Positions 1-16,203 of a stretch of 16,277 nucleotides of DNA are shown piece after piece; positions within the stretch are counted from its first letter, which is position 1; the number at the start of each line of letters is the position of its first letter. Position numbers and translations under genes: made by a program. A model generated the notes under the pieces. That model did not search any database. It was given only the letters and a program-made list of their open reading frames with translations, and was not told the DNA's origin. This stretch comes from Candidatus Raymondbacteria bacterium RIFOXYA2_FULL_49_16 (lineage in GTDB: Bacteria > Fibrobacterota > OXYB2-FULL-49-7 > XYB2-FULL-49-35): positions 1-16,277 of the forward strand of contig MFYT01000010.1 of NCBI GenBank assembly GCA_001789205.1, written 5' to 3'.

Positions 1-1
1 G

Positions 2-1741
2 CCTAATGGCGGGTTCGGAAATCTGATAGCGCTTCCCCTTCAGCGACTGCCGCGGAAAGATGGAAATTCCGTTTTTATCGATGCATCTTTGACCCCTTTT
101 CCTGACCAATGGGCTTTTCTTGCCAGCATACGGAGACTTTCGTATGCCGAAATTGCAACCATTCTTGATCGCCATTGTCCACAGAAGGATATACCGGCAC
201 TATCAGATACGGAAGAGATTGAAATCATTAACGCTGAGGCACCCTTGGATTCATCATTCATCAGTCTGGAAGGGTGCCATACCGATGAAATAAAAATAAT
301 TCTGGATAGTCAGGTCGAAATTGATATTAGCGCACTTCCGGCCCGTCTTATCAACGCCTTAAAGAGAGTTGCCACATTCGCAAATCCAAAATTCTTTGAA
401 CTGCAACGTCTCCGTTTTTCCACTTGGAAAACCCCTCGTTATATCTTCTGTGGTGAACTGGATGGAAGTCGTTTACTGTTGCCACGCGGAACGCTTGATG
501 AATGTGTCGCTCTGTGTGAAAAGGCTGGCGCTCGTATCCGTATCGAGGATAGACGGGTTCGCCATACTCCTGTATCCCTTAAATTCCAGGGAGAATTGAC
601 CGTCGAACAGAAAAAGGCCTTAAACAAGTTAATTCAGAATGAATATGGTGTTCTGGTTGCTCCTCCAGGAGCCGGTAAAACCGTAACCGCGTGCGCCGTT
701 ATGGCCAAACTTAAAGTGCCGGTGTTGGTTTTGGTTCATCGCAAGCAATTACAGGAACAATGGAAGCAGATGATTACAACCTTTCTCGGTATTTCTAACA
801 AACAGATTGGAAACCCTGGCGTTAAAAGAAGCGGACTGATTGATATATCTACGTTACAAACACTTGCACGCTCCAAAAATATTCCCGACATAGACCACCA
901 TTACGGGTTGATCATCGTGGATGAATGCCATCATGGTTCTGCGGTCTCTTTTGAAGGGGTGCTCAAACTATTTTCCACTCGCGTCATACTTGGTCTGACT
1001 GCAACCCCTTTCCGAAAAGATGGAGACCAAGCCATTTTTCATATGCAGTGCGGACCAATTCGCCATCAGATGAAAGGGCCGGAGGATTCCATTTTGATAA
1101 ATAAACGAGTAGTTGTTCGCGAATCGCATTTCCGTATGCCTCCGGAGTCACCACCCCAGTCCCCGATCCACGAAGTCTGGAATCAATTGATTTTAGACCA
1201 GAATCGCCTTGAATTAATTTCTAATGATATCATTGCGGCAATTCAATCAGGTCAATTCCCGCTTGTATTGTCTGAAAGAAAAGACCATTTGGAGCGGCTG
1301 TATAGCTTTGTTCAACAAAAGAGTGCCGACACTGCCTTCAAAGGATTTCTGTTATTCGGTGATATGGGTAAAAAAGAGCGCAAGCGAATTATGGTAGGGT
1401 TGGCTCAATGTCTGGAACAGAAAGAGAAACCCTGTCTTTTCTCAACGGGGTCGCTGATAGGTGAAGGATTTGACCTTCCAGAACTGGATACGCTTATTCT
1501 TGCCATGCCTATTTCGTTTAAGGGGCGGATTATTCAATATGTCGGTCGCATCAACAGAGTTAGCCAGGGGAAAAGCACGGCAACGGTATATGATTATGTG
1601 GATATAAATCTTGGCCTGACAATTTCGATGTTCAGGAAGCGGCTCCCTGCCTATAGAAAATTGGGCTATACAGTCGAAGCTCAACCGAATACTAAAGTCT
1701 CAGAACTGATAAAGCGAACAAGAAAAATAAACCTGGAGTAA
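2..1741 (+). CDS. TOTE-type archaeo-eukaryotic primase/SF2 helicase (5'-partial)
   Basis: The reading frame is open from the first full codon of the window, so the gene starts outside it; the TTG at 89 is internal. The first ~40 residues (GGFGNLIALPLQ, GNSVFID, PDQWAFL) look like the end of the archaeo-eukaryotic primase domain of TOTE conflict-system proteins. A complete superfamily II helicase core follows: Walker A APPGAGKT at residues 220-227 (counted from base 2), Walker B DECH at 307-310, LTATP at 332-336 and the arginine-finger motif QYVGRINR at 512-519. The protein stops soon after the helicase, with no extra nuclease domain visible. TOTE proteins are predicted, from comparative genomics, to act on invading nucleic acid by coupling primase-like and helicase activities. 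The helicase assignment is very secure; the TOTE label rests on recognising the short primase tail and on the overall architecture. Confidence 0.85.
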   Translation, partial: PNGGFGNLIALPLQRLPRKDGNSVFIDASLTPFPDQWAFLASIRRLSYAEIATILDRHCPQKDIPALSDTEEIEIINAEAPLDSSFISLEGCHTDEIKIILDSQVEIDISALPARLINALKRVATFANPKFFELQRLRFSTWKTPRYIFCGELDGSRLLLPRGTLDECVALCEKAGARIRIEDRRVRHTPVSLKFQGELTVEQKKALNKLIQNEYGVLVAPPGAGKTVTACAVMAKLKVPVLVLVHRKQLQEQWKQMITTFLGISNKQIGNPGVKRSGLIDISTLQTLARSKNIPDIDHHYGLIIVDECHHGSAVSFEGVLKLFSTRVILGLTATPFRKDGDQAIFHMQCGPIRHQMKGPEDSILINKRVVVRESHFRMPPESPPQSPIHEVWNQLILDQNRLELISNDIIAAIQSGQFPLVLSERKDHLERLYSFVQQKSADTAFKGFLLFGDMGKKERKRIMVGLAQCLEQKEKPCLFSTGSLIGEGFDLPELDTLILAMPISFKGRIIQYVGRINRVSQGKSTATVYDYVDINLGLTISMFRKRLPAYRKLGYTVEAQPNTKVSELIKRTRKINLE

Positions 1742-1802
1742 CGATTGCAACTTTTCGTGATTTTGGATGTTTTAGAAGATTATACACTTGGCAGGAGGAA
1801 TT

Positions 1803-2171
1803 TTGGATGGTTATTTTGATAATGCCGATGGGGCATCAGAATTTGGCAGCGGATGCGCTGCCGCGCACCTCTTATGCCAGACGTTAAGAAGCAACGTTAT
1901 GTTTAATGGATCCAGCATATATGAAGAGGATAGAATCCTAACGGCGAAATACTGTGATCGCCGTTCCACTGATTATCTACACTACAATGCCAAGACAACA
2001 ATTAAAGCTACCGGCAAAAAACGGATCGAGATGTCTTTGGTTTTCAGCGGAACGCCACCATTTGCTGCGCCTATGCCGCCTTGTGAGCACACTATAAATG
2101 CAGAATGCATTCTCGATTTGTATTCTAAACTGATGAAATGGTTTCGGAAGTGGGGGTATGAAATACAGTAA
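1803..2171 (+). CDS. Unrecognised small protein
   Basis: I do not recognise this protein. From the TTG at 1803 it has 122 residues; a longer version from TTG 1788 is possible, but only the 1803 start has an SD (AGGAGG, 1793-1798), at a short spacing of four bases. The N-terminus is small and acidic (DGYFDNADGASEFGSG). The middle is basic with several tyrosines, followed by a PPFAAPMPP proline segment. The C-terminus is an amphipathic tail rich in Trp and Lys (KLMKWFRKWGYEIQ). There is no signal peptide or membrane segment. The gene starts about 60 bases after the helicase stop on the same strand and may be cotranscribed. An ATG at 1807 in another frame has better SD spacing but encodes only 26 residues. 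The residue composition looks protein-like, but start and function are uncertain. Confidence 0.5.
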   Translation: MDGYFDNADGASEFGSGCAAAHLLCQTLRSNVMFNGSSIYEEDRILTAKYCDRRSTDYLHYNAKTTIKATGKKRIEMSLVFSGTPPFAAPMPPCEHTINAECILDLYSKLMKWFRKWGYEIQ

Positions 2172-2298
2172 GCGAACCAACCCTTCTAAGCAAGCCGCAC
2201 GTGAATTACTTAATACGATGTCACGGGATAATGTCCGATAAGTTTCCTGAGATTTGCAACTTGAAACCATTGGTGACGTTCGGTCAGAAAGGTAAGAT

Positions 2299-2634
2299 AT
2301 GGCAGAATATGGTGAGTGGAATCGGAAAGGGGCAACCCTCAGCGACATAACGGCTAAGAGGGAATATGGAGTAGACCGGGATTTCATCATTAAGGGCATA
2401 CAGGCCGGCAAACTCGAATACCGCGAGGGCTCAATATGGGGCAATCCGTATATAAAGGTCTTGCGGAGCCAACTTGAGAAGTACATCACTGAGCAGCTTG
2501 GAAAAGATCATCTACGGACGGGCACGAATAAGACAGAGCTTCGGAAGATCAAGAAGGAAATGGCCGATCTAAAGAAGAGACTGGATGAGCTTCAAGCCCG
2601 AAGAACAGAGCTTGAGAAAGAGATGAGGAAATAG
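2299..2634 (+). CDS. Small HTH protein with C-terminal coiled coil
   Basis: This 111-residue protein starts at ATG 2299 behind AAAGG (2288-2292). Residues ~12-60 (GATLSDITAKREYGVDRDFIIKGI onward, then AGKLEYREGSIWGNPYIKVLRSQLEKYI) resemble the compact winged or MerR/excisionase-like helix-turn-helix that reads a short site and ends in a helix. Residues ~76-111 are a highly charged heptad-like helix (KTELRKIKKEMADLKKRLDELQ...), very probably a coiled coil for dimerisation. It is the last + strand gene before the R1 boundary element and may be a regulator or excisionase-like accessory factor of the module carrying the helicase. It could equally be an independent small DNA-binding protein. The gene is likely real; the exact family is not identified. 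Confidence 0.72.
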   Translation: MAEYGEWNRKGATLSDITAKREYGVDRDFIIKGIQAGKLEYREGSIWGNPYIKVLRSQLEKYITEQLGKDHLRTGTNKTELRKIKKEMADLKKRLDELQARRTELEKEMRK

Positions 2635-2741
2635 GGGACCGAATACGTGTATCTACCCAACTGTTGATTGCCCGACCAGAGAGAAACATCAGCCAGAAAA
2701 GAGAGAATCCTTCAAACCAGAAGGACTTGCAGGTTTCTTAT

Positions 2742-2768
2742 TGTAGCGGGGCTTGGATTTGAACCAAA
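2742..2768 (-). other. tRNA 3'-end-like fragment (T-arm plus acceptor strand)
   Basis: Read on the minus strand, 2768-2752 folds as a T-arm: stem TTTGG, loop TTCAAAT, stem CCAAG. The seven bases CCCCGCT (2751-2745) follow, which would be an acceptor 3' strand, then A-CAA. No matching 5' acceptor strand (AGCGGGG), D-arm or clear anticodon arm lies upstream on that strand, so this is at best a 3' fragment. Such fragments are often left by integration at tRNA genes. It could also be a chance T-arm look-alike. Confidence 0.3.
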
Positions 2769-2803
2769 ACTTACAGGTTCTTTGAGCTATGAGAGCAAAT
2801 CCG

Positions 2804-2936
2804 TGCCAAAACACCCCCTGCCAAAAACATCTCATTTCTACCTCACCGCTCTATAACACATTGATTTTAAAGACTATTCTTCGGGTCGCCATATTGAGCC
2901 CCCTGATTCCAAAAGAGTTGGGGGGTTCTTTCTTTA
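2804..2936 (+). repeat. Boundary repeat R1 (diverged copy)
   Basis: This is the first and most diverged of three copies of an intergenic element (also 6792-7021 and 13231-13461). Shared blocks run in the same order: CCGTGCC, CACCCCCTGCC, then CTCACCGCTCTATAAC, ATTGATTTTAAAG and a CATTCT-like block, ending in a GC-rich hairpin and a T tract. The first hairpin present in the other two copies is not palindromic here. R1 lies between the convergent ends of the HTH gene (+) and the second TPR gene (-), where a terminator is expected. Confidence 0.7.
2897..2936 (+). terminator. Rho-independent terminator in R1
   Basis: CCCCC at 2899-2903 pairs with the G run at 2920-2925. An inner stem ATTC/GAGT contains one wobble pair, and the T-rich tail starts at 2926. 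It is oriented to stop transcription from the HTH gene side. Confidence 0.65.
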
Positions 2937-3007
2937 TGCTCTTGCCAGCTGCTTCTATTGGCATATTTTTTGTGGGAAAATCCGGGTTTTTCAATTGGAA
3001 GATAAAA

Positions 3008-3940
3008 TCACACCACATGGTTGTTTTTCTTTTCGTCCATTCTTTTATAATCGTCTTCAAGTTCATTCAGGGATTTCCCGGATTCGATATCAGCCAAAAG
3101 AAATCTTGCCCCCTGATTGTCTGATGGGTTAAGCCAAAGCATTTTATCAAATACTTGCTTGGCTTCTTGGATTTCCCCTAATTTCCAGAGTACCAATCCA
3201 TACCCATGCATACACCGAAGAAAAGGCCGGTTATTGATGTGTCCCCATGGCAATAATCCTTCAAACTCATTTCCAAAGGACAATTCAGCGATCTTAATCC
3301 CAACCTGATAGTGTCGTTTTGCCCGTTCCAGCCTAAACGTACTTCCATCACTGTCCCAATTCCCCAAATGAGCATGCGCATCTATACAGCGAAGGTCTGT
3401 AGTCAATATGTGTTCCATAATTTCATGAGCCTTTTCGTAATCGCCGCGATCATGACAATCCGCCGCTTCGATAATAGGATCGCTCCAATCATCATCAGGA
3501 TCCTGAAAGGGTATTACCTGTTCCATTTCGTATGATTTTCTGGGGCCGCGGACAATTATTGGCGCATAGTATTTCTCAAAGGGATCCCCGTTATCAAATA
3601 AATCCTCACCGGCAGGGTCCCATTCGCCCTGATCTTTAATGCCGAGAGGGGTCAGTTTCAAGGCCGGTATATCAATTCGACTTGAAAGAACGCTGCCGGT
3701 CATATAATCCGTGGTTTTATATCGCCAAATCTTTATAACCTCTACGGTAATGATTTCTCCCTCAACTTCTTCCCGAACCAGCCTGAACGTGACCGGTTGG
3801 CACCCATTTAATAATCTGCACCTAATCCCTGTTCTTTTTACGGCAAGGACAACCAATTCAACGACCTGCCCTGCTTGAATATTTAAGTCACTATTTTGAT
3901 TTTCAACCAAATCCCAGGGCCTTTTTAAAATATCCGTCAT
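3008..3940 (-). CDS. TPR-containing cytoplasmic protein with N-terminal OB-like domain
   Basis: This 310-residue protein starts at the ATG complementary to 3940-3938, preceded on that strand by GAAGGAAAT. Residues ~20-100 are beta-rich (VVELVVLAVKRTGIRCRLL, EIITVEVIKIW) and may form an OB-like fold. Residues ~150-290 carry TPR-like helix pairs (AADCHDRGDYEKAHEIMEHIL, YGLVLWKLGEIQEAKQVFDKM) and the segment LPWGHINNRPFLRCMHGYG, followed by LWLNPSDNQGARFLLADI. I know this arrangement from an uncharacterised 'cytoplasmic TPR protein' family with scattered distribution in bacteria. No signal peptide or membrane segment is visible. It is the last gene of the minus-strand operon, 42 bases after the zinc-ribbon TPR gene. 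TPR proteins usually act as protein-binding scaffolds; the partner here is unknown. Confidence 0.82.
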   Translation of the reverse strand: MTDILKRPWDLVENQNSDLNIQAGQVVELVVLAVKRTGIRCRLLNGCQPVTFRLVREEVEGEIITVEVIKIWRYKTTDYMTGSVLSSRIDIPALKLTPLGIKDQGEWDPAGEDLFDNGDPFEKYYAPIIVRGPRKSYEMEQVIPFQDPDDDWSDPIIEAADCHDRGDYEKAHEIMEHILTTDLRCIDAHAHLGNWDSDGSTFRLERAKRHYQVGIKIAELSFGNEFEGLLPWGHINNRPFLRCMHGYGLVLWKLGEIQEAKQVFDKMLWLNPSDNQGARFLLADIESGKSLNELEDDYKRMDEKKNNHVV

Positions 3941-3982
3941 TTTTTATTTCCTTCACCTGATGTTTTTCAGACGCGCCAAGGT

Positions 3983-4939
3983 CTATGCTAACTTTCTTAA
4001 CAGGTCTTTGAGAAGAGATTTATTCTTTGCCTGGTAATCCAAACCATAATTTATTATCGGGACAGGACCTTCATGCAGGGTCTCGCCTTCTTCAAGCGAC
4101 AAAAGCGAAGCCTTATTTATCTGGGCAGGTTCATAATCCGGATCGACTTGAAGCGCCTTGTCAAAAACCGCGAGTGCTTCCTGTTTTTGCCCAAGTTTGG
4201 CGTAACAAAGACCCATATTGCCGTACGAACGCGCATTTCCGGGATTAATTGAAACACACTCTTTGAAAATACGTATAGCCCCTTCCCAGTCCATTTCTTC
4301 CATGGCTTTAACAGCTGTTTCAAACACATCGTACGCCTTGACAAATGTGTCCAAGTTCACGCCTTCTCTTTTGCGGATATCATCGTTAAGTTCCCATAGG
4401 AACTGCTTGGCCCAAATGACATTTTCATTGTTATGGTCTCCATATTCTATCGCTTCCTTGAAAGCCCTGACCATGTTTGGAATGTCCATCTTGATCTTAT
4501 ATGCCATTCCCTTATTGAACAATGCGGGGAAGAAATAAGGAAACATTTTCAGCGCTTTATCGAAATAGCGTATCGCATCGTCTGGATTGTCCCATTTGGC
4601 CATGACTGTACCACGGGCAAAATTGACCATGTAGTATTCTGAATCCACTGCCGGTATTCCATCAAGCATTCTTTCCGCTTCAGATAGGCTGTTATTTTCA
4701 ACAAGTTCCAAGACACGATCAATTTGTTCCTCTATTTCAGGTTTCACCTCGAAAATGAATTTTGGGGTCTTTTTTCCCCCTAGTTCTTTCTTATATTTCA
4801 TGGAATCAGCGTAATATCGGCATCCATCACATTCATCATTGCGAATGGCCGCGCAGCACATTGAACAAATTTCAAGCTTGTTTTTTGCCATGCAGGTTCG
4901 CTGGGATTTCTTTATTTTACAAAGTCCGCATTTTTGCAT
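3983..4939 (-). CDS. Zinc-ribbon TPR protein
   Basis: I place the start at the ATG complementary to 4939-4937 (318 residues). It has AGAGGAAAT upstream, whereas an upstream GTG would add nine residues overlapping the preceding gene. The N-terminus has a Cys-rich knuckle, C4-x2-C7, C16, C25-x2-C28-C29 and C37-x2-C40, probably binding zinc. At least three TPR-like units follow: VNFARGTVMAKWDNPDDAIR, the FFPALFNKGMAYKIKMDIP region and ARSYGNMGLCYAKLGQKQEA, the last ending in a canonical FDKALQVDPDYEPA. The upstream stop (TAA, 4944-4942) is two bases from this ATG, so translation is probably coupled. The role is unknown; a zinc-ribbon adaptor bringing other proteins together is the simplest reading. 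The family is recurrent in accessory regions, which is an impression and not measured. Confidence 0.85.
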   Translation of the reverse strand: MQKCGLCKIKKSQRTCMAKNKLEICSMCCAAIRNDECDGCRYYADSMKYKKELGGKKTPKFIFEVKPEIEEQIDRVLELVENNSLSEAERMLDGIPAVDSEYYMVNFARGTVMAKWDNPDDAIRYFDKALKMFPYFFPALFNKGMAYKIKMDIPNMVRAFKEAIEYGDHNNENVIWAKQFLWELNDDIRKREGVNLDTFVKAYDVFETAVKAMEEMDWEGAIRIFKECVSINPGNARSYGNMGLCYAKLGQKQEALAVFDKALQVDPDYEPAQINKASLLSLEEGETLHEGPVPIINYGLDYQAKNKSLLKDLLRKLA

Positions 4940-4941
4940 TT

Positions 4942-5272
4942 TTATTTCCTCTTCGCCTTGAACCACGACTGATCGCCCATGTGGAAAGCAATTTTACCGT
5001 ATAGGGTTCCGTCTTCCTCAATTCTTGTCCAACCTCTACCGCTGACCGGATCCATTTCGTCGTTTCCGGCCCAAGAAAATTCAAGGCGCTGTTTTCCTTC
5101 GATTTCCTCTATTTCGTAATCTATCTGCCCTTGGACATATCCAAACTGAAAAGAGCTTCGTTTGCCGAATTCGATGAAACCTTCCACCTCTTCATCAATG
5201 AAATCCTGGTCCCCACTGCTCCATTTCGGTAATGCGCCATTTGCCGATGAATGGGTTTCTATTTTCAGCCAT
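4942..5272 (-). pseudogene. Small conserved protein broken by a +1 frameshift
   Basis: The 81-codon open frame ending at 4942 (FIEFGKRSSFQFGYVQGQID..., NDEMDPVSGRGW) has no good start of its own. In another frame, an ATG complementary to 5272-5270 begins MAENRNPFIGKWRITEMEQW, which fits the expected N-terminus of this family. The two frames join exactly if one G is removed from the run of four G (5211-5214, CCCC on the plus strand): ...EQW then DQDFIDEEVEGFIEF. The repaired protein would have 109 residues. It belongs to a recurrent family of small soluble proteins of unknown function with the NDEMDP and GRGW motifs. Either the gene is a recent pseudogene or the assembly has one extra base. 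It lies in the minus-strand operon, 84 bases after the AlbA_2 gene and two bases before the zinc-ribbon TPR start. Confidence 0.75.
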
Positions 5273-5356
5273 TGATTTGTTTTCCCCGTTTTACCCCAAC
5301 AAGCCCTTTTCGGTCTTTTGCAGGCGTTTGGACGTCAATCCATGGTGTATTTCAAA

Positions 5357-6760
5357 TCATTTTTCAGGAGGTGGACTGATAACAAGCCAATGCCCGCCTT
5401 TATCCGGACCAATTCGGCGAAGCAGGCTTTTCTTCTTCAAGTGCATTATATTCTTATCGATCGCGGTAGTGCTAATGCCAATATTTTCAGATAATTCTTT
5501 CTTCGAGATGTTCGGATTATTTGTCATCAGCTCAAGCATCTTTTTCTGGTTTTCTACCAACCCTTCTACCAACCCTTCTACCAACCCAGCCTTCGAACTT
5601 TCCCCTGATTCAGCGATAATACCTTTGTTCCTTTCGGTCTGCAATGTGGTCATGTCAGGTCTGTAGAAGGTCACCATAAAGCCGCTTTTGGTCCTTTCAA
5701 ACATCACTTTCACGCTTGCCGCTTTGCACTCTTCACTAATTCGCCGTAAACCAGAACCCCATTTTTCAATATCTTCAGAACGATATAATGTCTCCGCGAT
5801 TAAGGGATTCCGGGGAATGCTTGGCTCCGTTCCTTTGATGAAATCTTCCGGTGAAAAATCGAAGGGGAATTGACCGGGGTTAAAGATTTCTATTCTGTCC
5901 CGATAGATGGCAACCTCGTTGCTCTTGGGATTCGTAAAATCCCTGTGGCACAACGAATTGATGATGGCTTCCTTGATGGCGCGTACAGGAATTTCGGGAA
6001 TTTCCAGCCTGCGGCTTCCGGAAAGGTCGGCACGCCAGTTGATGTGCTCTTTTATATACAGTTCACTTTTCTCGATCAGATCAAAAAGATTACCCCGGAA
6101 GCTCTGGATATCCAGAAATGTTATCTTGTCATTACCTGCGAAAACAGCGGCCTGTACCTCGATTCCATTGTCCTTGCAAAACAATCCTTTGCCTGCGTTA
6201 AGCAGTTTGTCGCCTTTCATAAGGTTCAATTTATTCAGGGCGTTTTTTGCGGAATCGTAAGGAAAGCTGATCCGTCCTACTTCGTTGCCTCTTTTTATAA
6301 ACTGGCGTAAGGTTGAAACGTCTACATCGGACACGGGGATATCTGAAATTTCCGCACCCCATGGGTAAACGTAATGGCTTTTCTTTTCAATAAGCCGACG
6401 TATTTCACTTACCGAAAGCTTTCTATCCTCGTCTCCGGTCCGCATATAAAAACGGCCAAAGGCCGAATAAAGCGCCTCATGACCGGAAAACTCGACTTTG
6501 ATGCAGTCTTTGCTGTCAATCTTTTCAACTTTAATATCCGGGAATATCTTTGGATCAATATGGTCGCTTATGGCCCTTGAAATGTCTTTTAGTGTTAAAT
6601 TACCGACCTGCTGTCCAATGATCGTTCCATCATCTTTGATGCCGAAATAAAGGATCCCTTTCCCATGCTTATTTAGAATGGAAGATATGGATATAACCGC
6701 CTCTTTCAGTTCGGATGTTGATTTTTTCAACTCGACATTTTCCGTCTCTTTAAATTGCAT
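5357..6760 (-). CDS. AlbA_2/Schlafen-type ATP-binding transcriptional regulator-like protein
   Basis: I choose the ATG complementary to 6760-6758 (467 residues), preceded by TGAGGT at a good distance, over an ATG nine codons further upstream. Residues ~1-120 form an AlbA_2/Schlafen-AAA_4 domain (VELKKSTSELKEAVISISS, HGKGILYFGIKDDGTIIGQ, GRFYMRTGDEDRKLS). Residues ~250-360 resemble an HATPase_c_4-type domain (IPVRAIKEAIINSLCHRD, RIEIFNPGQFP, IAETLYRSEDIEKWGSGL). A linker made of three G-L-V-E units leads to a C-terminal winged helix (NPNISKKELSENIGISTTAI). Proteins of this kind are annotated as putative DNA-binding, ATP-binding regulators and sit in many accessory and defence-type loci; few have a known job. 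It is the first gene of the minus-strand operon, and its probable promoter lies inside boundary repeat R2. Confidence 0.9.
   Translation of the reverse strand: MQFKETENVELKKSTSELKEAVISISSILNKHGKGILYFGIKDDGTIIGQQVGNLTLKDISRAISDHIDPKIFPDIKVEKIDSKDCIKVEFSGHEALYSAFGRFYMRTGDEDRKLSVSEIRRLIEKKSHYVYPWGAEISDIPVSDVDVSTLRQFIKRGNEVGRISFPYDSAKNALNKLNLMKGDKLLNAGKGLFCKDNGIEVQAAVFAGNDKITFLDIQSFRGNLFDLIEKSELYIKEHINWRADLSGSRRLEIPEIPVRAIKEAIINSLCHRDFTNPKSNEVAIYRDRIEIFNPGQFPFDFSPEDFIKGTEPSIPRNPLIAETLYRSEDIEKWGSGLRRISEECKAASVKVMFERTKSGFMVTFYRPDMTTLQTERNKGIIAESGESSKAGLVEGLVEGLVENQKKMLELMTNNPNISKKELSENIGISTTAIDKNIMHLKKKSLLRRIGPDKGGHWLVISPPPEK
5552..5587 (-). repeat. 12-bp tandem repeat encoding G-L-V-E units
   Basis: Three perfect head-to-tail copies of a 12-base unit (TTCTACCAACCC on the plus strand) lie inside the AlbA_2 gene, adding four residues (Gly-Leu-Val-Glu) per unit to the linker before the winged helix. 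Because the unit is a multiple of three, copy-number change would keep the frame. Confidence 0.95.
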
Positions 6761-6813
6761 ATTATTAACCTCATGTAAAAAATACATTTCCGGCCAGAGA
6801 TAGATGAAAGAGA

Positions 6814-6843
6814 ATTATGGGCATACACTCCGCCCAGTGTTAA
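6814..6843 (-). promoter_or_regulatory. Possible promoter of the minus-strand operon
   Basis: On the minus strand, a -35-like TTAACA (6843-6838) and a -10-like CATAAT (6819-6814) are 18 bases apart, about 55 bases before the chosen AlbA_2 start. Both boxes fall inside repeat R2. The match is modest. Confidence 0.3.
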
Positions 6844-6981
6844 TAAGGACCCATAGCGACAAATAGGGGAATTAAAGAAAATCCATGCCGCAGCACCCCT
6901 GCCGTTAATATCTCAATTTTATCTCACCACTCCGTAACGCATTGATTTTAAAAGCCATTCTGCGAGGCGCCAGATCGCAGA

Positions 6982-7021
6982 AACCCCTCAATCCAGCAAT
7001 GGGCTGAGGGGTTTTCTTTTT
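6982..7021 (+). terminator. Terminator-like hairpin 2 of R2
   Basis: Perfect arms AACCCCTCA (6982-6990) and TGAGGGGTT (7005-7013), with extra inner pairs, are followed by a T-rich tract. It is oriented toward the marR promoter and would block read-through into the efflux unit. Confidence 0.75.
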
Positions 7022-7055
7022 CCATTTCATTCGGCCTAATTGTTGATTTTAGTTG

Positions 7056-7086
7056 GTTGATAAAGATAACTGTTGCTTATTGCAAC
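7056..7086. promoter_or_regulatory. Tandem operator pair before marR-type gene
   Basis: Two 15-bp near-palindromes lie one base apart: GTTGATAAAGATAAC (7056-7070) and GTTGCTTATTGCAAC (7072-7086; perfect arms GTTGC/GCAAC). The same GTTG-N7-(C/T)AAC-like pair recurs before the tolC-type gene with the same 16-base period. These are likely binding sites of the MarR protein. Confidence 0.6.
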
Positions 7087-7101
7087 CATTTGTATTATAT
7101 T
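7073..7101 (+). promoter_or_regulatory. Probable promoter of the marR-type gene
   Basis: A -35-like TTGCTT (7073-7078) and a -10 TATATT (7096-7101) are 17 bases apart. The -35 box is inside the second 15-bp inverted repeat, so bound repressor would block RNA polymerase. Confidence 0.45.
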
Positions 7102-7126
7102 TATTACTGCTCTAAAGGAGAAACAA

Positions 7127-7567
7127 TTGAGACAGCACGAAATACCTTTTGGAATGGTGATTGGCGAACTGATGAGACCGTACATGAAACAATTAAAAAA
7201 ACGCATATCTGAATCAGGATTAGATATCACTTTTGAGCAATTAGGACTTCTGCATGCAATTTCGACAAAGATGGACGATGTGTTTCAGCAGGATATGGCT
7301 GACATGCTGTGCAAGAATAAATCGGGAATTCTCAGGTTTACAGATATTTTAGAAGCAAAAAGATATGTGGTGCGTAGTCATGACCCCAACGATCGCCGGA
7401 AAAATATTCTTTCAGTGACAACGAAAGGACACGAAGTTTTGGAAAAAGTCATGGGCATTGATTTTGCCATGGCTGAATCTTTTACAGAAGGAATTGAGTG
7501 CGCGGATATGGATGCTTTCTATAGGGTCATTGAAGCAATTAAGATAAAAATGGAGGAACAGGACTAA
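7127..7567 (+). CDS. MarR-family transcriptional regulator
   Basis: I place the start at TTG 7127 (146 residues), six bases after AAAGGAG (7114-7120). The 18 codons upstream in frame have no SD and read as promoter DNA. The protein fits the MarR fold: an N-terminal dimerisation helix (EIPFGMVIGELMRPYMKQLKKRI), a winged helix (FEQLGLLHAIS, VFQQDMADML, SGILRFTDILEAKRYVVR), the wing HDPNDRRKNILSVTTKG with the D-x-R-x-K-like basic tip, and C-terminal helices. MarR proteins bind palindromes as dimers and release them on binding small molecules. The gene is directly upstream of the efflux operon. Matching tandem inverted repeats in both promoters indicate that it represses itself and the pump. The inducer cannot be read from the sequence. 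Confidence 0.93.
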   Translation: MRQHEIPFGMVIGELMRPYMKQLKKRISESGLDITFEQLGLLHAISTKMDDVFQQDMADMLCKNKSGILRFTDILEAKRYVVRSHDPNDRRKNILSVTTKGHEVLEKVMGIDFAMAESFTEGIECADMDAFYRVIEAIKIKMEEQD

Positions 7568-7584
7568 AAAAATTTGCTCCAATA

Positions 7585-7615
7585 GTTGACATTATCAACC
7601 GTTGACGTTGTTAAT
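7585..7615. promoter_or_regulatory. Tandem operator pair before the efflux genes
   Basis: Two 15-bp sites lie one base apart: GTTGACATTATCAAC (7585-7599, perfect arms GTTGA/TCAAC) and GTTGACGTTGTTAAT (7601-7615, second arm degenerate). Layout and sequence match the pair before marR. TTGACA within the first site could serve as a -35 box, but no convincing -10 box is seen at normal spacing. Confidence 0.6.
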
Positions 7616-7636
7616 CTATTTTGAAAGGAATTCGAT

Positions 7637-9001
7637 ATGCGATTTAACATGTATCACCCTCTTTTCTGGTGTGGAATGCTTTTTCTCGCATGCATGCTCA
7701 ATGCCCAATCGTCCTTCTCTCTTAAAGATTGCATTGAATACGCGAAAACTCACCATTCAACCCTAAAAACGGGTGAATATGATATTGCCATTGCTCAGAA
7801 AAGAGTGAATGAGCAGATAGGTTCAGGACTCCCGCAGATTACGGCATCCGGCTCGTTGGATGACAATCTTAAAAAGGCCACGCAACTCATGCCGGCGGCA
7901 ATGTTCGGAGGCCCTTCAGGAAGTTATGTGGAAATGGAGTCAGGCACCCGGTACAGTATGTCCGCCGGTGTTTCGCTTAATCAGAACATAATAAACCCTT
8001 CTTTTTGGATTGGATTGGAAAGCGCAAGAATAAGCAAAAAACTTTCAGAGCAGAGGTTTCAACAGAGCTATGAACAGGTTGTTTATGGGATAGGATTGGC
8101 ATACTATCAATCCATGATTCTGCAAAAACAGGTGCGGATATTGCAGGCCACGCTTGATGCTTCGAACGCGTCCCTTCGGGCCGCCGAATTGCGCTTTGCC
8201 AATGGAATGGCCAAACAGACTGATATAGATAGGTTACGAATCAGCTTTAACAATGCCCGGTCACAGATGGAACAGACCGCGATGAATTATGAACAATCGC
8301 TCAACAGCCTCAAGTTTAATTTGGGAATGCCTGTTGACAGCGCCCTCATACTGGCTGACACGTTACTACCCACAAGTTTCGCTGATACATCCGTCGATAC
8401 TTCGGTTGCAATGGCGGTGGAAAGTAGGAGTGACTATAGATTACAGGAGACTAATCTTTTCCTTTCAAAATTGGATCGTAAAAAGCTGTTCGCATCCACC
8501 CTTCCGGTTCTTACTGGTTATGTCAATCTGAGATATAATGCCGCAAACGAGGAGTTTAATTTAATTGACAAGGATCAGAAGTGGTATGAAAGTTCGGCCA
8601 TCGGGCTTCAGCTTTCTATGCCGCTGTTCAGCGGTCTGCAGACCTTCCAGAGGATTGCCCAATTAAGACTCACTATGATAAAAGCAGAGGAAACCCTCAA
8701 ACAGACCGAACAATCGATTAAAGTCAATGTTTCAAATTACCTGGTGCAGTACAAAACCACCCTGGCCCAGATAACCAACGAGTCTGATAATTATGAACTG
8801 GCAAAACGGGTTTATGCCGATACGCGACTGGAATTCGAGCAGGGTGTAAGCTCAACCTATAATTTAGTACAGGCCGAGAGTTCGCTTCGCGAAGCGCAGA
8901 ACAACTACTTCAACAAGCTGCTTAATTTTTATATCGCCAGGATAGGACTGGAACAGGCCAAAGGCACTCTTGTTTCATTTTTTCTAACAAAAGAAAGGTA
9001 G
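7637..9001 (+). CDS. TolC-family outer-membrane efflux protein
   Basis: This 454-residue protein starts at ATG 7637 behind AAAGGA (7624-7629). A signal peptide is visible (hydrophobic core FWCGMLFLACMLNA, likely cut near NAQ), and the mature N-terminus has the typical SLKDCIEYAKTHHSTLK. Two repeated units of long amphipathic coiled-coil helices with short beta segments follow (INPSFWIGLESARIS, LSMPLFSGLQTFQRIAQL, LEFEQGVSSTYNLVQAESSL), as expected for a trimeric beta-barrel/alpha-tunnel channel. It would form the exit duct of a tripartite efflux complex with the adaptor and RND pump encoded immediately downstream. The length is normal for the family. The substrate is unknown. Confidence 0.95.
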   Translation: MRFNMYHPLFWCGMLFLACMLNAQSSFSLKDCIEYAKTHHSTLKTGEYDIAIAQKRVNEQIGSGLPQITASGSLDDNLKKATQLMPAAMFGGPSGSYVEMESGTRYSMSAGVSLNQNIINPSFWIGLESARISKKLSEQRFQQSYEQVVYGIGLAYYQSMILQKQVRILQATLDASNASLRAAELRFANGMAKQTDIDRLRISFNNARSQMEQTAMNYEQSLNSLKFNLGMPVDSALILADTLLPTSFADTSVDTSVAMAVESRSDYRLQETNLFLSKLDRKKLFASTLPVLTGYVNLRYNAANEEFNLIDKDQKWYESSAIGLQLSMPLFSGLQTFQRIAQLRLTMIKAEETLKQTEQSIKVNVSNYLVQYKTTLAQITNESDNYELAKRVYADTRLEFEQGVSSTYNLVQAESSLREAQNNYFNKLLNFYIARIGLEQAKGTLVSFFLTKER

Positions 9002-9007
9002 TACACC

Positions 9008-10060
9008 ATGAGCAAAAAAACATTCATACTCATAGGTCTGGTCATCGTAGGGCTGATCATTTACCGATTGAACGGTAATTATAATAAAATCAATTCGCGC
9101 CAAAATGTCAGTACGGACCTTCCCCGGGTCAGTGTGACCGTGGATACTGTGAAATCATTCTCCTTGGAGCAGGACATGGAATGCGTTGGCACTCTCGCTC
9201 CCATCACTGAAATCAATATTGCAGCAGAATCTCAGGGCGGTATTACTTCTTTGCCGGTCCGCCTGGGGCAGAGAGTACAGAAGGGAGAGATCCTTGCCAA
9301 GATTGACGACAAACAGAAAGCGCTTTCCGTAGAGGCGGCGCGTATCAGTTTAAGGAAACTTGAAAAAGACTTACAGCGTTATCAGAACCTCTACAAGGGT
9401 GGGACAATCACAGAGCAGCAACTGGATGAGATGACCAGTGTTCGCGACAACACGGTGATCCAGCTTCAGCAGATGGAAAAACAGCTATCCGACGCTGTTA
9501 TCCGAGCCCCTATCACCGGAATTATATCCGAAAAGTTTGCCGAAGAAGGAGCATTCATCAATGTAGGTTCTCCGGTTGTCACCATTGTCAATGTTGACAG
9601 ATTTAAAATAAATCTCAATGTTTCCGAGGAACAGGTCTACGTGTTGATAAAAGGATCGCCAGCCACAATAAAGACCGATATTTATCCTGATGTCGATTTT
9701 TCCGGTATCGTAAGTTTTATCAGCCCAAAAGGGGATGCGGGACACAATTATCTTGTGGACGTGATTCTGAACAACAGCGCACATCATTCGCTTAAAGCAG
9801 GAACTTTCGTAACCGTTAGAATATCTCTTCCTGCCTCTCCCAAGGCATCTTACATTCTGAGAGAAGCACTGCAGGGGACGCTCCAGAATGCTTATGTGTA
9901 TGTTGCGGAAGGGGGGCTTGCCTTATCGCGCTCTGTGGTTGTACAAAGCGCAGGGAACAAGTGGCTCCGTATTCGTAAAGGGCTTAATCCCGGAGAAGCG
10001 GTTATCATAGGCGGTCAAGTCAACCTCACCGATGGCAAAGCCATTGCCATCCGCAATTAA
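9008..10060 (+). CDS. RND efflux periplasmic adaptor subunit (HlyD/MFP family)
   Basis: This 350-residue protein starts six bases after the tolC-type stop, with AAAGG just upstream. The N-terminus has one membrane anchor (TFILIGLVIVGLIIY). Two half-lipoyl segments (INIAAESQGGITSLPVRLGQ with VQKGEILAKID; VIRAPITGIISEKFAEEGAF) flank a short alpha-hairpin (residues ~100-150, LRKLEKDLQRYQNLYKGGTI). A beta-barrel and membrane-proximal domain follow (FKINLNVSEEQVYVLIKG, LKAGTFVTVRI, GLNPGEAVIIGGQVNLTDG). It bridges the inner-membrane pump and the outer-membrane channel in the periplasm. The short hairpin is typical of RND-type adaptors. Confidence 0.95.
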   Translation: MSKKTFILIGLVIVGLIIYRLNGNYNKINSRQNVSTDLPRVSVTVDTVKSFSLEQDMECVGTLAPITEINIAAESQGGITSLPVRLGQRVQKGEILAKIDDKQKALSVEAARISLRKLEKDLQRYQNLYKGGTITEQQLDEMTSVRDNTVIQLQQMEKQLSDAVIRAPITGIISEKFAEEGAFINVGSPVVTIVNVDRFKINLNVSEEQVYVLIKGSPATIKTDIYPDVDFSGIVSFISPKGDAGHNYLVDVILNNSAHHSLKAGTFVTVRISLPASPKASYILREALQGTLQNAYVYVAEGGLALSRSVVVQSAGNKWLRIRKGLNPGEAVIIGGQVNLTDGKAIAIRN

Positions 10061-10071
10061 TGGAGGATGTC

Positions 10072-13000
10072 ATGTCCATAACAGAAATAGCCATCAAACG
10101 ACCGACCCTAATTGTTGTCATCTTTACCATATTGGCGGTACTGGGATTAACATCCTATTCTTTGCTGAATTATGATTTAATCCCTAAGATGAGTATTCCT
10201 AATATTACAGTGGCAACAATTTATCCGGGCGCTTCTGCGCATGAAGTGGAAAGCTCCATTACCAAGCCTCTTGAAGAAGCGCTTTCATCGCTGGACAATG
10301 TCAAAAGCATGCAGTCGACATCACAAGAGGGCGCCTCAACCATTATGCTAGAACTGGGGACTGAAGCTGATGTCAATCGGGTGTTACAGGATGCCCAACG
10401 GAAGGTAAATACCATATTGGCAGGTCTTCCTTCGGGTGCCAAGACTCCTTCCATCAACAAGTTTTCCTTCGATGATATGCCCATCATGAAACTGGGTGTC
10501 ATCGGGTCGCTTCCTCCCAAGCAGCTCTACCAACTTGTCGAAGATCAGATCAAACCTCAGCTGTCCAAGATCGGTGGTGTAGGCCAGGTGAGCTTGGTGG
10601 GCGGGAGCAAGCGTGAAATCCAAATCAGTGTCAAGAGAGACCGTCTCAACGCCTATCAAATGAGCATGGATCGGATTTATGCAGCTATCCAGGCAGCTAA
10701 TCTGGAAATGCCGACCGGCAGTATCGAAAGCGATTACAAACAATACACGGTAAGAATGAAGGGGAAGGTGACCTCCCTTGACCAGCTAAGAAATCTCATG
10801 CTCTCAAGGACGACATCGGGCGGAATCGTGAGATTGGGTGATATTGCCGAAATTACCGATGGTATCGCGGAACAAACGGCCCTTAACCGTATCAATGGCC
10901 AAAACTCCATAGGGCTTCTTATAACTAAGCAGAGCGATGCCAATACGGTGGATATCTGTACCAAGCTAAAGAAGCAATTCACCCTATTAGAAAAACAATA
11001 TGCGGGCGACCATATTGTTTTTGATATCGCGGCAGATAACTCCACCTATACGCTGGCTTCTGCACATGCCGTTATGGAAGGTCTGATGCTCGCAATCATC
11101 CTCGTTGCCTTTGTCATGTTTTGCTTTCTTCACAGCGTCCGCAATTCATTCATTATTCTTGTTTCAATTCCCTGTTCGATCGTTTCTGTCTTTATTGCCA
11201 TGTATGTTTTTGATTTTTCATTGAACATGCTCACCCTAATGGCACTCTCTCTGGTGATTGGCATTCTGGTGGACGACTCCATCGTGGTCCTTGAGAATAT
11301 CCATCGCCATCTTGAAATGGGAAAGAACCGTACCGTTGCGGCCCTCGACGGAAGGAATGAGATCGGGCTTACCGCTCTTGCTATTACATTCGTGGATGTG
11401 GTTGTCTTTCTGCCGCTTTCATTGGTGTCCGGTATGATCGGGCACATGTTGCGTGAATTTTCACTGGTTATTGTATTCTCAACCTTAATGAGCTTGTTTG
11501 TTTCTTTTACAGTCACTCCGCTGTTGGCCTCCCAGTTGAGCAAAATTGAAAAACTGACCCGGAAGCGTCTTATCGGCCGCTTTGCCATCTGGTTTGAGGG
11601 GTCTTTCAAGGCGCTATTGTGTAAATATGAGTCCATTCTACGTTGGGCCTTGCAGCATCGGAGATGTGTATATGGTGGTGTTTTTGCTCTCTTGCTTGTT
11701 TCCGTTGTTCTCCTAAAATTGGGATTAATTGGCGCCGCGTTTATGAACGATGGTGATAAAGGGGAGTTCGTGATCAAACTTGAAGGTGAGCCCCAAAATA
11801 CATTACTCCAGTCTTCGCTCCTCACCGAAAAAGTTGAAAACCTGCTTAGAAAACATCCAGAAGTTATCAAGGTCTTTTCCAATGTGGGTTACACCAGCGC
11901 AGACATGGGAATGGGCAGCAATGGTCAGTACAAAAGTGAATTGACTGTTACCTTGGTGCCAAAGGAGAATAGGTCCATGCCGGTTGACGCTTTTGCGGCC
12001 ATGATTAAAAAAGAGATACAGGAGATACCCGGACTAAAGGTAACCTCTACCCCATCTAACATGATGGGTAATGCCGATGACGCGCCGATACAGCTTCTCT
12101 TGCGGGGGGCGGATGTCGTCCAGCTCTTTGCAACAGCAGATAGCGTTATGGGGGTTGTCAGGAAGATTCCTGGCACCAACGATGTTAAACTGTCCATTGA
12201 CAGAAGCAATCCGGAGATTCAGATAGAATTTGACCGTGAAAAGATGGAACTCCTGGATATTTCTGTACGTCAGGTGGGGAATACACTAAATATGGCACTT
12301 GCCGGAAATAGTGACCTTAAATATTCGGAGGGGGACAAAGAGTATGAAATTAATGTGGAATTCAACCGCTTTGACCGAAAAAGCATTGAAGATATCGGTT
12401 CGATGAAATTCCAGAATAGCCGTGGTGAAAACATTGCTCTGAGCTCTTTCGCAACTCTGACTCAATCTACTGGACCAAATAAACTGGAACGTTTTAACCG
12501 AATGCCTTCCATTACAGTCAATGCGTCGGTGTTCGGCCGACCTGTGGGTACTGTTGGCGATGAAATCAAAAAGGCTGTTAAGGAACGCATCCATCTCGGT
12601 CCGATCAGTTTGGATTACAAAGGACAAATGGAACGTCAGGCGGATGCTTTTAGCAGTCTCTTTATTGCTATTGGGGCGGCGCTCCTGTTCGTTTATCTGG
12701 TCATGGTTGCCCTCTATAATTCCTACCTTTATCCCTTTGTGGTCATGTTTGCAATCCCAGGGGCGGTGTTTGGTGCTTTTCTCGCACTTGCAGTGACGGG
12801 TGAAGCACTCACAATATTTTCAATGATAGGCATGATTATGTTGATAGGACTGGTTGCCAAAAACGCGATTTTGTTGGTTGATTTTACCAATAAATTGAAA
12901 GAGCAGGGAAAGAGTGTAACCGAAGCGTTGGTGGAAGCGGGCAAGGAACGTTTACGCCCAATCCTCATGACCACATTGTCTATGATCTTTGGCATGCTCC

Positions 13001-13185
13001 CCATTGCGCTGGCATCCGGGGCAGGTGCGGAGAGCAAAAATGGTCTGGCCTGGGTAATTATAGGGGGACTGACCAGTTCACTCATACTCACGCTGGTTTT
13101 GGTGCCTTCTGTTTACATGACGATGGAAAAGTATAAGAGTAGAATAATAAACCTTTTTCGTAAAAAGCAACCTGCCATTTCCTGA
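10072..13185 (+). CDS. RND multidrug efflux transporter, HAE1/AcrB-like
   Basis: I choose ATG 10072 (1037 residues) because GGAGG (10062-10066) lies five bases upstream; an ATG at 10060 would overlap the adaptor stop and has no such SD. The two-fold RND layout is complete: TM1 (PTLIVVIFTILAVLGL), a first periplasmic loop, TM2-6, TM7, a second loop and TM8-12. The proton-relay residues are present: Asp401-Asp402 in the TM4 segment GILVDDSIVV, and Lys930 in TM10 (GLVAKNAILLVDF), corresponding to AcrB Asp407, Asp408 and Lys940. The pump would work as a trimer and use proton import to expel amphiphilic or hydrophobic compounds. Its neighbours supply the adaptor, channel and repressor. The substrate range cannot be told. 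Confidence 0.96.
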   Translation: MSITEIAIKRPTLIVVIFTILAVLGLTSYSLLNYDLIPKMSIPNITVATIYPGASAHEVESSITKPLEEALSSLDNVKSMQSTSQEGASTIMLELGTEADVNRVLQDAQRKVNTILAGLPSGAKTPSINKFSFDDMPIMKLGVIGSLPPKQLYQLVEDQIKPQLSKIGGVGQVSLVGGSKREIQISVKRDRLNAYQMSMDRIYAAIQAANLEMPTGSIESDYKQYTVRMKGKVTSLDQLRNLMLSRTTSGGIVRLGDIAEITDGIAEQTALNRINGQNSIGLLITKQSDANTVDICTKLKKQFTLLEKQYAGDHIVFDIAADNSTYTLASAHAVMEGLMLAIILVAFVMFCFLHSVRNSFIILVSIPCSIVSVFIAMYVFDFSLNMLTLMALSLVIGILVDDSIVVLENIHRHLEMGKNRTVAALDGRNEIGLTALAITFVDVVVFLPLSLVSGMIGHMLREFSLVIVFSTLMSLFVSFTVTPLLASQLSKIEKLTRKRLIGRFAIWFEGSFKALLCKYESILRWALQHRRCVYGGVFALLLVSVVLLKLGLIGAAFMNDGDKGEFVIKLEGEPQNTLLQSSLLTEKVENLLRKHPEVIKVFSNVGYTSADMGMGSNGQYKSELTVTLVPKENRSMPVDAFAAMIKKEIQEIPGLKVTSTPSNMMGNADDAPIQLLLRGADVVQLFATADSVMGVVRKIPGTNDVKLSIDRSNPEIQIEFDREKMELLDISVRQVGNTLNMALAGNSDLKYSEGDKEYEINVEFNRFDRKSIEDIGSMKFQNSRGENIALSSFATLTQSTGPNKLERFNRMPSITVNASVFGRPVGTVGDEIKKAVKERIHLGPISLDYKGQMERQADAFSSLFIAIGAALLFVYLVMVALYNSYLYPFVVMFAIPGAVFGAFLALAVTGEALTIFSMIGMIMLIGLVAKNAILLVDFTNKLKEQGKSVTEALVEAGKERLRPILMTTLSMIFGMLPIALASGAGAESKNGLAWVIIGGLTSSLILTLVLVPSVYMTMEKYKSRIINLFRKKQPAIS

Positions 13186-13230
13186 TGCTCACGAAGATTG
13201 GGTTTAATATTCCGCCCCTAATCATCGTGT

Positions 13231-13461
13231 GGCCAGAAATCACAGATAGTGCTTAGCGGTCTATAGTATAGAATTATTGTGGATTACGAGAGAAGCGGCA
13301 AAATATTGATTTAAGAATTCCATGCCACCGCAATACCCCTGCCGTAAAATAATCCCAATTTAATCTCACCGCTCTGTAACGTATTGATTTATAAGACCAT
13401 TCTGCGAGGCGCCAGATCGCAGAACCCCTCAGTGCAGCAATGTGCTGAGGGGTTCTTTTTT
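13231..13461 (+). repeat. Boundary repeat R3
   Basis: This is the third copy of the boundary element, aligning with R2 from GGCCAGA to the T tract with similar length (start to hairpin 1 is 169 bases here, 166 in R2). Hairpin 1 is identical to R2, including its nine-base loop: TTCTGCGA (13400-13407) pairs with TCGCAGAA (13417-13424). Hairpin 2 differs in its inner stem but stays paired. R3 lies 45 bases after the pump stop. Confidence 0.8.
13423..13461 (+). terminator. Terminator of the efflux operon (hairpin 2 of R3)
   Basis: Ten-base arms AACCCCTCAG (13423-13432) and CTGAGGGGTT (13445-13454), plus wobble inner pairs, are followed by seven T's. It is suitably placed to end the marR-pump transcript. 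Confidence 0.85.
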
Positions 13462-14790: not shown

Positions 14791-16203
14791 ACCAGAACCT
14801 TCCATCGGCAGATGCACAATTCGCGACGACAACACCATCGGCCGCCGAACTGCTTGAGGCGACTATCCAAGAGATGCGGTGATGTATCCAAAGCCCCAAT
14901 ACCATACGCGATGCCCAGCACATGCTGGCCATGGAGCGGGATGTCGTGGCGCTGACCGATCGGTTAGCAGGAGCGATGATTGCTCAGATGACCACCAAGG
15001 CGTTGGAAGACCCGCTTCTGCGAGATGAGGGAAAGCAGATGAGTCGTTCACAGCCCCAGCGCATGAAGAATGTCGGCATCCGCTCGGTAACCATCCAGCC
15101 GGTCCGGGGGGAGGCGTTTGCGGTGAAGACCACCTACTACCACCGAAAAAAAAAGGGCTCTACGCCGAGCTGATCTTGCTGGGGATCGAGGATGGCCATA
15201 CGCCGGGGGATGCGGCGGATCTGGCGATCATGGCCAGCGCAATGTCCTCCTTGGCCGAGGCGACGGCGATGCTCGCCCGACAGGGCCGTCCCATTGATAT
15301 AAAAACACTGCGCTCGATCACATATCGCTTTTCTCGCAGAGCACGGGCTACGCAGGGTGTCGCCCAACTCGGCGCCCACATGTCGCTACAGGGATGTCGC
15401 TGCGCGGTCTCGGTTGATGGGGGGCGCATCCGTATCCGTACCCCCAAACGAGGGCACCATACCCCCAAAAAGCGCCAGCGCTACCACACCGACTGGCGGG
15501 AACCCAAACTGCTGCACATTTGGTTGCTAAGCGAGGACGGCATAATCCTGAGAGAGGCTTCTCCCTGGATCGACGGCACGTTGCGCGGCCCTGACGTCAT
15601 TTTCGGACAACTGCGCTACTACCTCACTGCCTTCGGTGTCACCGAAGCCGACCATGTACTGTTCATCGCCGACGGGCACGCTGGATATGGTCACGAGTAG
15701 AACAACTCATCGTCGACCTACGCCTTAACCCGGCAAAAGTCACCCAACTGGTCGACTTCTATCATGCGGTGGAGCATCTGGGTGTCGTGGCATCACTGAA
15801 GAAAGGATGGTCATTAAAAAAGCGTTCCCGTTGGCTCAATACGCACAAACGCGCACTAAAGAACGGAGCAGTAGATATGGTGGTCGCTGCCGTACAAAAG
15901 ATCTGTCGCGGAAGAATCAGCACCGCCATTGCCAGAGAGCGTGACTACTTCGACAACAACGCGCACCGTATGAACTACGCCAAGGCCCGGCGGCGGCATC
16001 TACCCATCGGCAGCGGTCCAATGGAAAGCGCGATCAGGCGCGTGATAAACTTGAGGCTTAAGGGCGCAGGTATCTTCTGGAGCGAGGAAAACGCCGAGGC
16101 AATGATCATGCTCCGCGCGTTCTACAAGGCGGGTAGATGGGACGTGCTGTTGACTTTGGCAACAACGCCACCAACGAATACCGCGAAAATATCAACCAAC
16201 TAA
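14787..16203 (+). pseudogene. DDE transposase gene, broken (ISKra4/ISLre2-like)
   Basis: The first frame starts at ATG 14787 behind AGGGAGAG, meets an in-frame TGA at 14880-14882, and resumes in the same frame (IQSPNTIRDAQHMLAMERDV) to the A9 run at 15146-15154. There the coding frame moves by -1 to ...KGLYAELILLGIEDGHTPGD. A further shift at ~15697 (GHE, then a loss equivalent to four bases) leads to EQLIVDLRLNPAKVTQLVDFYHAVEHL and the end at 16203. Candidate catalytic residues are Asp in SVDGGRI (15416), Asp in IADGHAG (15671) and Glu in GSGPMESA (16024). The C-terminal NLRLKGAGIFWSEENAEAM block is typical of this transposase group. With a nonsense codon and a clear frameshift, this copy is probably inactive. 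Confidence 0.85.
15149..15155 (+). other. Candidate -1 programmed frameshift site (A-AAA-AAG)
   Basis: In the incoming frame the run reads A AAA AAG, the classical slippery heptamer of IS transposases, and the downstream coding frame is exactly -1. A small stem GCTC/GAGC follows within a few bases. A plain indel in the A9 run would look the same. Confidence 0.45.

Follow-up and report, generated by a model that had tools for sequence, protein, structure and literature searches.

The locus analysed here raises the question of what the three related repeats are that separate unrelated groups of genes in a 16,277-nt stretch of DNA (the window, which is the whole of contig C10). In the first-pass annotation, R1, R2 and R3 had been described as same-strand repeats, each closing with a terminator-like hairpin, that mark the borders between a TOTE module, a TPR/AlbA_2 module and a MarR/RND efflux module. 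Alignment and hairpin prediction bore out the repeats, their places and the strong terminator hairpin at the end of each, and the gene calls agreed with the module borders, the cores of the repeats (see below) being crossed by no recognised gene. The three copies are co-oriented and, when aligned, share a common unit of ∼140 bp (Table 1), in which R2 and R3 are ∼83–87% identical and R1 stands at ∼70–75%. A repeat search of the window delimited an ungapped block of 77 nt (2829–2905, 6910–6986 and 13352–13428), over which R1 and R3 show 70% and 87% identity to R2, respectively. Local alignment of the ∼135-bp units gave scores of 82, 81 and 168, compared with 25–30 for the best of 1000 dinucleotide shuffles, which excludes a chance likeness. 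Beyond the units, the ∼100 bp upstream and downstream aligned no better than shuffled sequence; for the ∼100 bp upstream of R2 and R3, by which their alignment had earlier been drawn out to ∼230 bp, the score was 16, whereas shuffles averaged 16.6.

The repeats had also been taken to be dispersed, and a covariance-model search for many further genomic copies had been proposed. In the 5.43-Mb genome, however, BLAST, a pattern search allowing three mismatches and a covariance model yielded three copies, all of them in the window; every copy belongs to one array beside one tRNA gene. Among the matches listed for the covariance model, the sole further one in this genome was partial (C80:1956–2011, − strand) and corresponds to the 3′-end of tRNA-Phe followed by a terminator. 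When other genomes of the phylum were searched with the covariance model and for the arm plus core, no convincing copy was found, R2 and R3 being the sole matches to the arm-plus-core search. Weak covariance-model matches across the phylum were explained by the terminator or by composition, and a degenerate pattern of the IHF-type arm, run against genome contigs, hit five loci from unrelated taxa that have the IHF-like motif alone in common. R has no match in Rfam, and querying phage and plasmid collections with R3 returned no real match.

Each repeat contains a 16-nt core corresponding to the 3′-end of tRNA-Phe(gaa), the gene for which (C80:1994–2066, − strand) is present in a single copy in the genome, as seen with Rfam (RF00005) and ARAGORN. 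The core of R2 and R3 (ATTCTGCGAGGCGCCA) matches tRNA-Phe at 16 of 16 positions, the next-best value among all host tRNAs being 11/16, while R1 has a decayed version (13/16). When the 19-mer ATTCTGCGAGGCGCCARAT was sought with up to three mismatches, only R2, R3 and tRNA-Phe were recovered. R2 and R3 are identical over 28 nt that comprise the core and its flanks, but their arms differ. The tRNA-Phe gene and R1–R3 all lie in one orientation. An intact host tRNA gene stands at one end of the region (where the assembly also branches to contig C58; see below), a co-oriented fragment of its 3′-end is found at each unit border, and the cargo is delimited by repeated copies of the 3′-end of one and the same tRNA. 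The core is the tRNA-Phe 3′-end and not an attC motif, which fits the earlier remark that the repeats lack the conserved ends of integron attC sites. A foreign tRNA-Phe was sought as the source of the R1 core, with no viral match. Separately, a tRNA-like sequence (GTTTTGGTTCAAATCCAAGCCCCGCT) resembling a T-arm plus the 3′ acceptor strand lies at 2745–2780 (− strand); it is unique in the genome within three mismatches, was called by neither ARAGORN nor Rfam, and may be what is left of another att site.

Table 1. Repeats, junction elements and units of the array (positions in the window)
Feature	Position	Strand	Description
R1	2797–2935	+	att junction, unit 1 (AbiEi-TOTE)/unit 2 (TPR/AlbA_2), very probable assignment
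R2	6878–7020	+	att junction, unit 2/unit 3 (MarR-RND), very probable assignment
R3	13317–13460	+	att junction, right end of unit 3, very probable assignment
R1 core	2876–2891	+	ATTCTTCGGGTCGCCA; 13/16 to tRNA-Phe 3′-end; next-best host tRNA 10/16
R2 core	6957–6972	+	ATTCTGCGAGGCGCCA; identical to host tRNA-Phe 3′-end
R3 core	13399–13414	+	ATTCTGCGAGGCGCCA; identical to host tRNA-Phe 3′-end
R1 predicted IHF-consensus site	2854–2866	+	TAACACATTGATT
R2 predicted IHF-consensus site	6935–6947	+	TAACGCATTGATT
R3 predicted IHF-consensus site	13377–13389	+	TAACGTATTGATT
R2 putative half-sites	6958–6982	+	TTCTGCGAG/GCGCCAG/ATCGCAGAA; inverted, 7-bp spacer
R1 terminator hairpin	2896–2928	+	right arm
R2 terminator hairpin	6982–7013	+	right arm
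R3 terminator hairpin	13421–13456	+	right arm
Unit 1, window part	1–2875	+	TOTE primase-helicase C-terminal part (2–1741) and small ORFs
Unit 2	2892–6956	−	two TPR proteins, 81-aa ORF, Schlafen/AlbA_2 protein; all genes on the − strand
Unit 3	6973–13398	+	MarR regulator, outer-membrane efflux protein, HlyD-type adaptor, RND transporter

The bases around the core are arranged in the same way in the three repeats. Left of every core, at a distance of ∼10 bp, TAACRYATTGATTW fits the IHF consensus at every position, the form used being YAANNNNTTGATW, the reverse of the string WATCAANNNNTTR printed in PMC7581858. Six such sites are present in the window on both strands, half of them being those at R1, R2 and R3, so that each repeat has, as lambda-type sites do, an IHF site predicted by consensus beside its core. 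The genome encodes two HU/IHF-family proteins that score best to IHF models, yet below the curated cut-offs. The strict motif GTAACNCATTGATTTTANNTGG was matched in three viral contigs, in all of which it overlaps the stop codon of a PF00589 integrase; in two of them (L128 and L130) tRNA-Arg 3′-end sequence follows directly, L130 having a complete tRNA-Arg gene after the motif. Relative to the tRNA end, the motif is placed outside in the viral contigs and inside in R, as would be expected if R is the other arm. The core of R2 and R3, together with the bases that follow it, forms TTCTGCGAG/GCGCCAG/ATCGCAGAA, which, judged from its sequence, appears to be shaped like a tyrosine-recombinase core site. 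The hexamer ATCTCA, which lies further left, recurs after 11 bp in R2 and is mismatched in R1 and R3; these direct repeats may represent arm-type sites. With core-type, IHF and candidate arm-type sites, the plan of R would be that of a lambda-type site. Lambda-type att sites (PMC4880445) resemble the putative ones described here in their inverted core half-sites, 7-bp spacer and adjoining IHF site, and possibly in their arm-type direct repeats (ATCTCA, with an 11-bp period in R2); they differ in that the target here is the 3′-end of tRNA-Phe, and in that binding of Int and IHF is a prediction. To the right of the core, an intrinsic terminator is present in R1, R2 and R3; the tRNA-Phe gene is followed by a terminator at the corresponding position, to which the terminator of R3 is detectably similar (shuffle fraction 0.0015).

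The window adjoins the contig that bears tRNA-Phe: the first 71 bp of C10 match the end of C80 exactly, and the TOTE reading frame is open across this overlap, with the AEP-TOTE domain on C80 (PF22548, E = 2.9e-76) and the helicase on C10. That C10 might be a contaminant was considered and rejected, its composition being within the range of samples of this genome and the overlap tying it to C80. The order read is tRNA-Phe, AbiEi-TOTE, R1, TPR-AlbA_2, R2, MarR-RND efflux, R3, with core-end to core-end distances, starting at the tRNA, of 4813 bp (unit 1, tRNA end to R1 core end), 4081 bp (unit 2) and 6442 bp (unit 3). At the start of the window, where C80 and C10 join, 55 bp are also found at the end of contig C58, so the assembly graph branches there. 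In the last ∼2.9 kb of C58 (about 135390–138235), at the contig end, the TOTE and AlbA_2 genes recur in a rearranged and partly deleted form that is 93–98% identical and is followed by a transposase fragment; no R was found in the stretch matching TOTE/AlbA_2. The identity of the cores is independent of the C80–C10 join, while the order tRNA–unit 1–R1 depends on it. Unit 1 runs leftwards from the window onto C80 through the AEP-TOTE domain and AbiEi, up to tRNA-Phe. The TOTE, AbiEi and AlbA_2 genes are cargo typical of islands. A small ORF located before R1 (2299–2634), which looked excisionase-like by eye, was not supported by Pfam, PHROGs or NCBIfam.

It is very probable that a lambda-type tyrosine recombinase integrated elements serially at the 3′-end of the single tRNA-Phe gene and that R1–R3 are their attR-like junctions. 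Read from the left, a junction would consist of the end of the left element (the arm with the IHF site), the 16 nt that copy the tRNA-Phe 3′-end, and the start of the right element with its intrinsic terminator. An incoming element would rebuild the 3′-end of the tRNA and its terminator would end the tRNA transcript, which would leave the host tRNA gene intact; the older core would be displaced outwards at each insertion, and repeated rounds would produce the array of three units that extends from tRNA-Phe to R3. The earlier suggestion of cassette-style insertion or recombination between dispersed repeats is supported for insertion, the repeats being read as tRNA-Phe junctions of serially inserted islands, and not for dispersal. 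We infer the action of a tyrosine recombinase, the binding of IHF, the order of insertion, and a recombinase that either acted in trans or has been lost. One observation that speaks against serial integration is that R1, being nearest to tRNA-Phe and hence expected to be the youngest copy, is the most diverged. Simple stacking leaves this divergence unexplained, and it points to a diverged element or to decay.

Also against serial integration are the missing integrases of the units, the second branch of the assembly at the C80–C10 join and the lack of R-like IHF arms at the integrase loci of the genome; nor was an empty site seen, the genomes compared being no closer than the phylum. In its favour, 12 PF00589 recombinases are encoded in the genome, as are the two HU/IHF-family proteins. 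No PF00589 match was obtained on C10 or C80; a tblastn search of the joined C80–C10 region with 12 integrases revealed no credible relic (best E = 0.023), and no R-like IHF arm was found within ∼1.5 kb of any of the 12 loci. At one of the integrase loci of the genome, the 5′ fragment of a tRNA-Asn-like gene (C83:21745–21803) lies directly beside a tyrosine integrase (21909–22364), and its sequence looks as if the gene had been split by an island at the anticodon. Elsewhere (C75:6001–8471) three tyrosine recombinase genes are consecutive.

Serial integration at tRNA-Phe can take two forms. In one, to which we give nearly an even chance, every unit would have started out as a normal island or prophage whose tRNA-Phe integrase was deleted later, and would be immobile now. 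The degenerate R1 core, the frameshifted ISKra4-type transposase to the right and the partial duplicate of TOTE/AlbA_2, rearranged and with deletions, at the end of C58 are in line with such a history, but three consecutive units without any integrase remnant are not, and the identity of R2 and R3 over the core and flanks, with arms that differ, is unlike neutral decay. That three units in a row have no integrase would instead suit non-autonomous units with complete att ends, served by an integrase whose gene lies at another place in the genome or is brought by visiting elements. This second form, which we regard as plausible and put forward tentatively, also agrees with the retention of IHF site, core and terminator at each junction and with the 12 tyrosine recombinases located elsewhere, although none of these has an R-like IHF arm nearby and copies of R occur at no second site in the genome. 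An integron-like platform at a tRNA gene, in which integrase-less cassettes with a self-contained ∼140-bp att module (composed of IHF arm, tRNA-Phe core and tRNA-protecting terminator) would be moved in and out in trans by a recombinase outside the array, seems rather unlikely.

It is improbable that a single island at tRNA-Phe gained its extra junctions through segmental duplication or through homologous recombination between att copies: the partial TOTE/AlbA_2 copy on C58, 93–98% identical, shows that segments here do duplicate, but the three units carry unrelated cargo and sequence similarity does not extend beyond the ∼140-bp junction. A family of terminators or small RNAs placed after operons would account for the strong terminator at the end of each copy, yet is hardly credible: R2, with no + strand gene upstream, is ruled out as an ordinary gene terminator, conservation includes the unstructured arm and core, the first hairpin is broken in R1, the core is identical to tRNA-Phe, and neither a match in Rfam nor copies elsewhere in the genome were found.

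Tycheposons have a tRNA border and a tyrosine recombinase within the element, whereas no recombinase was seen in any unit of the present array. The tRNA/tmRNA islands and tandems of Islander (PMC4383910) are similar to it in having an intact tRNA gene at one end and co-oriented displaced 3′ fragments at the borders. Islander accepts a tandem only if every member has its own integrase, and counts 125 tandems of two or more and four of three or more (PMC4383910); with no integrase per unit, the array described here is additive and tRNA-anchored, and not a strict Islander-type tandem. Since the Islander filters drop integrase-less arrays, such stacks may be under-counted. The fGI-2 region of Ca. 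Methylopumilus (PMC10872708) is likewise built at one tRNA gene, with repeated copies of the 3′-end, and has variable cargo, a feature that the present array may share, but its repeats are the last 20 nt of tRNA-Lys, while here the tRNA is tRNA-Phe, the core has 16 nt and each copy lies inside a ∼140-bp junction with an IHF-consensus site and a terminator. In Dehalococcoides, too, several islands are stacked downstream of one RNA gene, ssrA; their borders are 20-bp direct repeats of the ssrA 3′-end, and they contain an integration module ‘in many cases’, not all (PMC3146451). These islands use a serine recombinase module, whereas the arms of R resemble tyrosine-recombinase sites and the units contain no recombinase. 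That islands can lie in tandem at RNA genes is already known; what is new is an integrase-less array with unusually complete, long and well-preserved junctions. A repeat that had no name now gives precise unit borders, which allow the TOTE, AbiEi and AlbA_2 defence genes and the efflux operon to be interpreted as three units, each acquired separately, at a single tRNA gene. The completeness of the junctions makes mobilisation in trans directly testable.

Two further observations concern the right part of the window. In unit 3, an inverted repeat pair is located before marR (7055–7075) and between marR and the outer-membrane efflux gene (7580–7600), positions at which they may possibly serve as MarR operator sites. 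The segment 13863–16277 contains a frameshifted transposase, the last part of which (15769–16203) matches the ISKra4 family; two DUF6788-like ORFs, one strong and one weak, precede it, and the last ∼57 bp of C10 resemble a transposase gene on C70.
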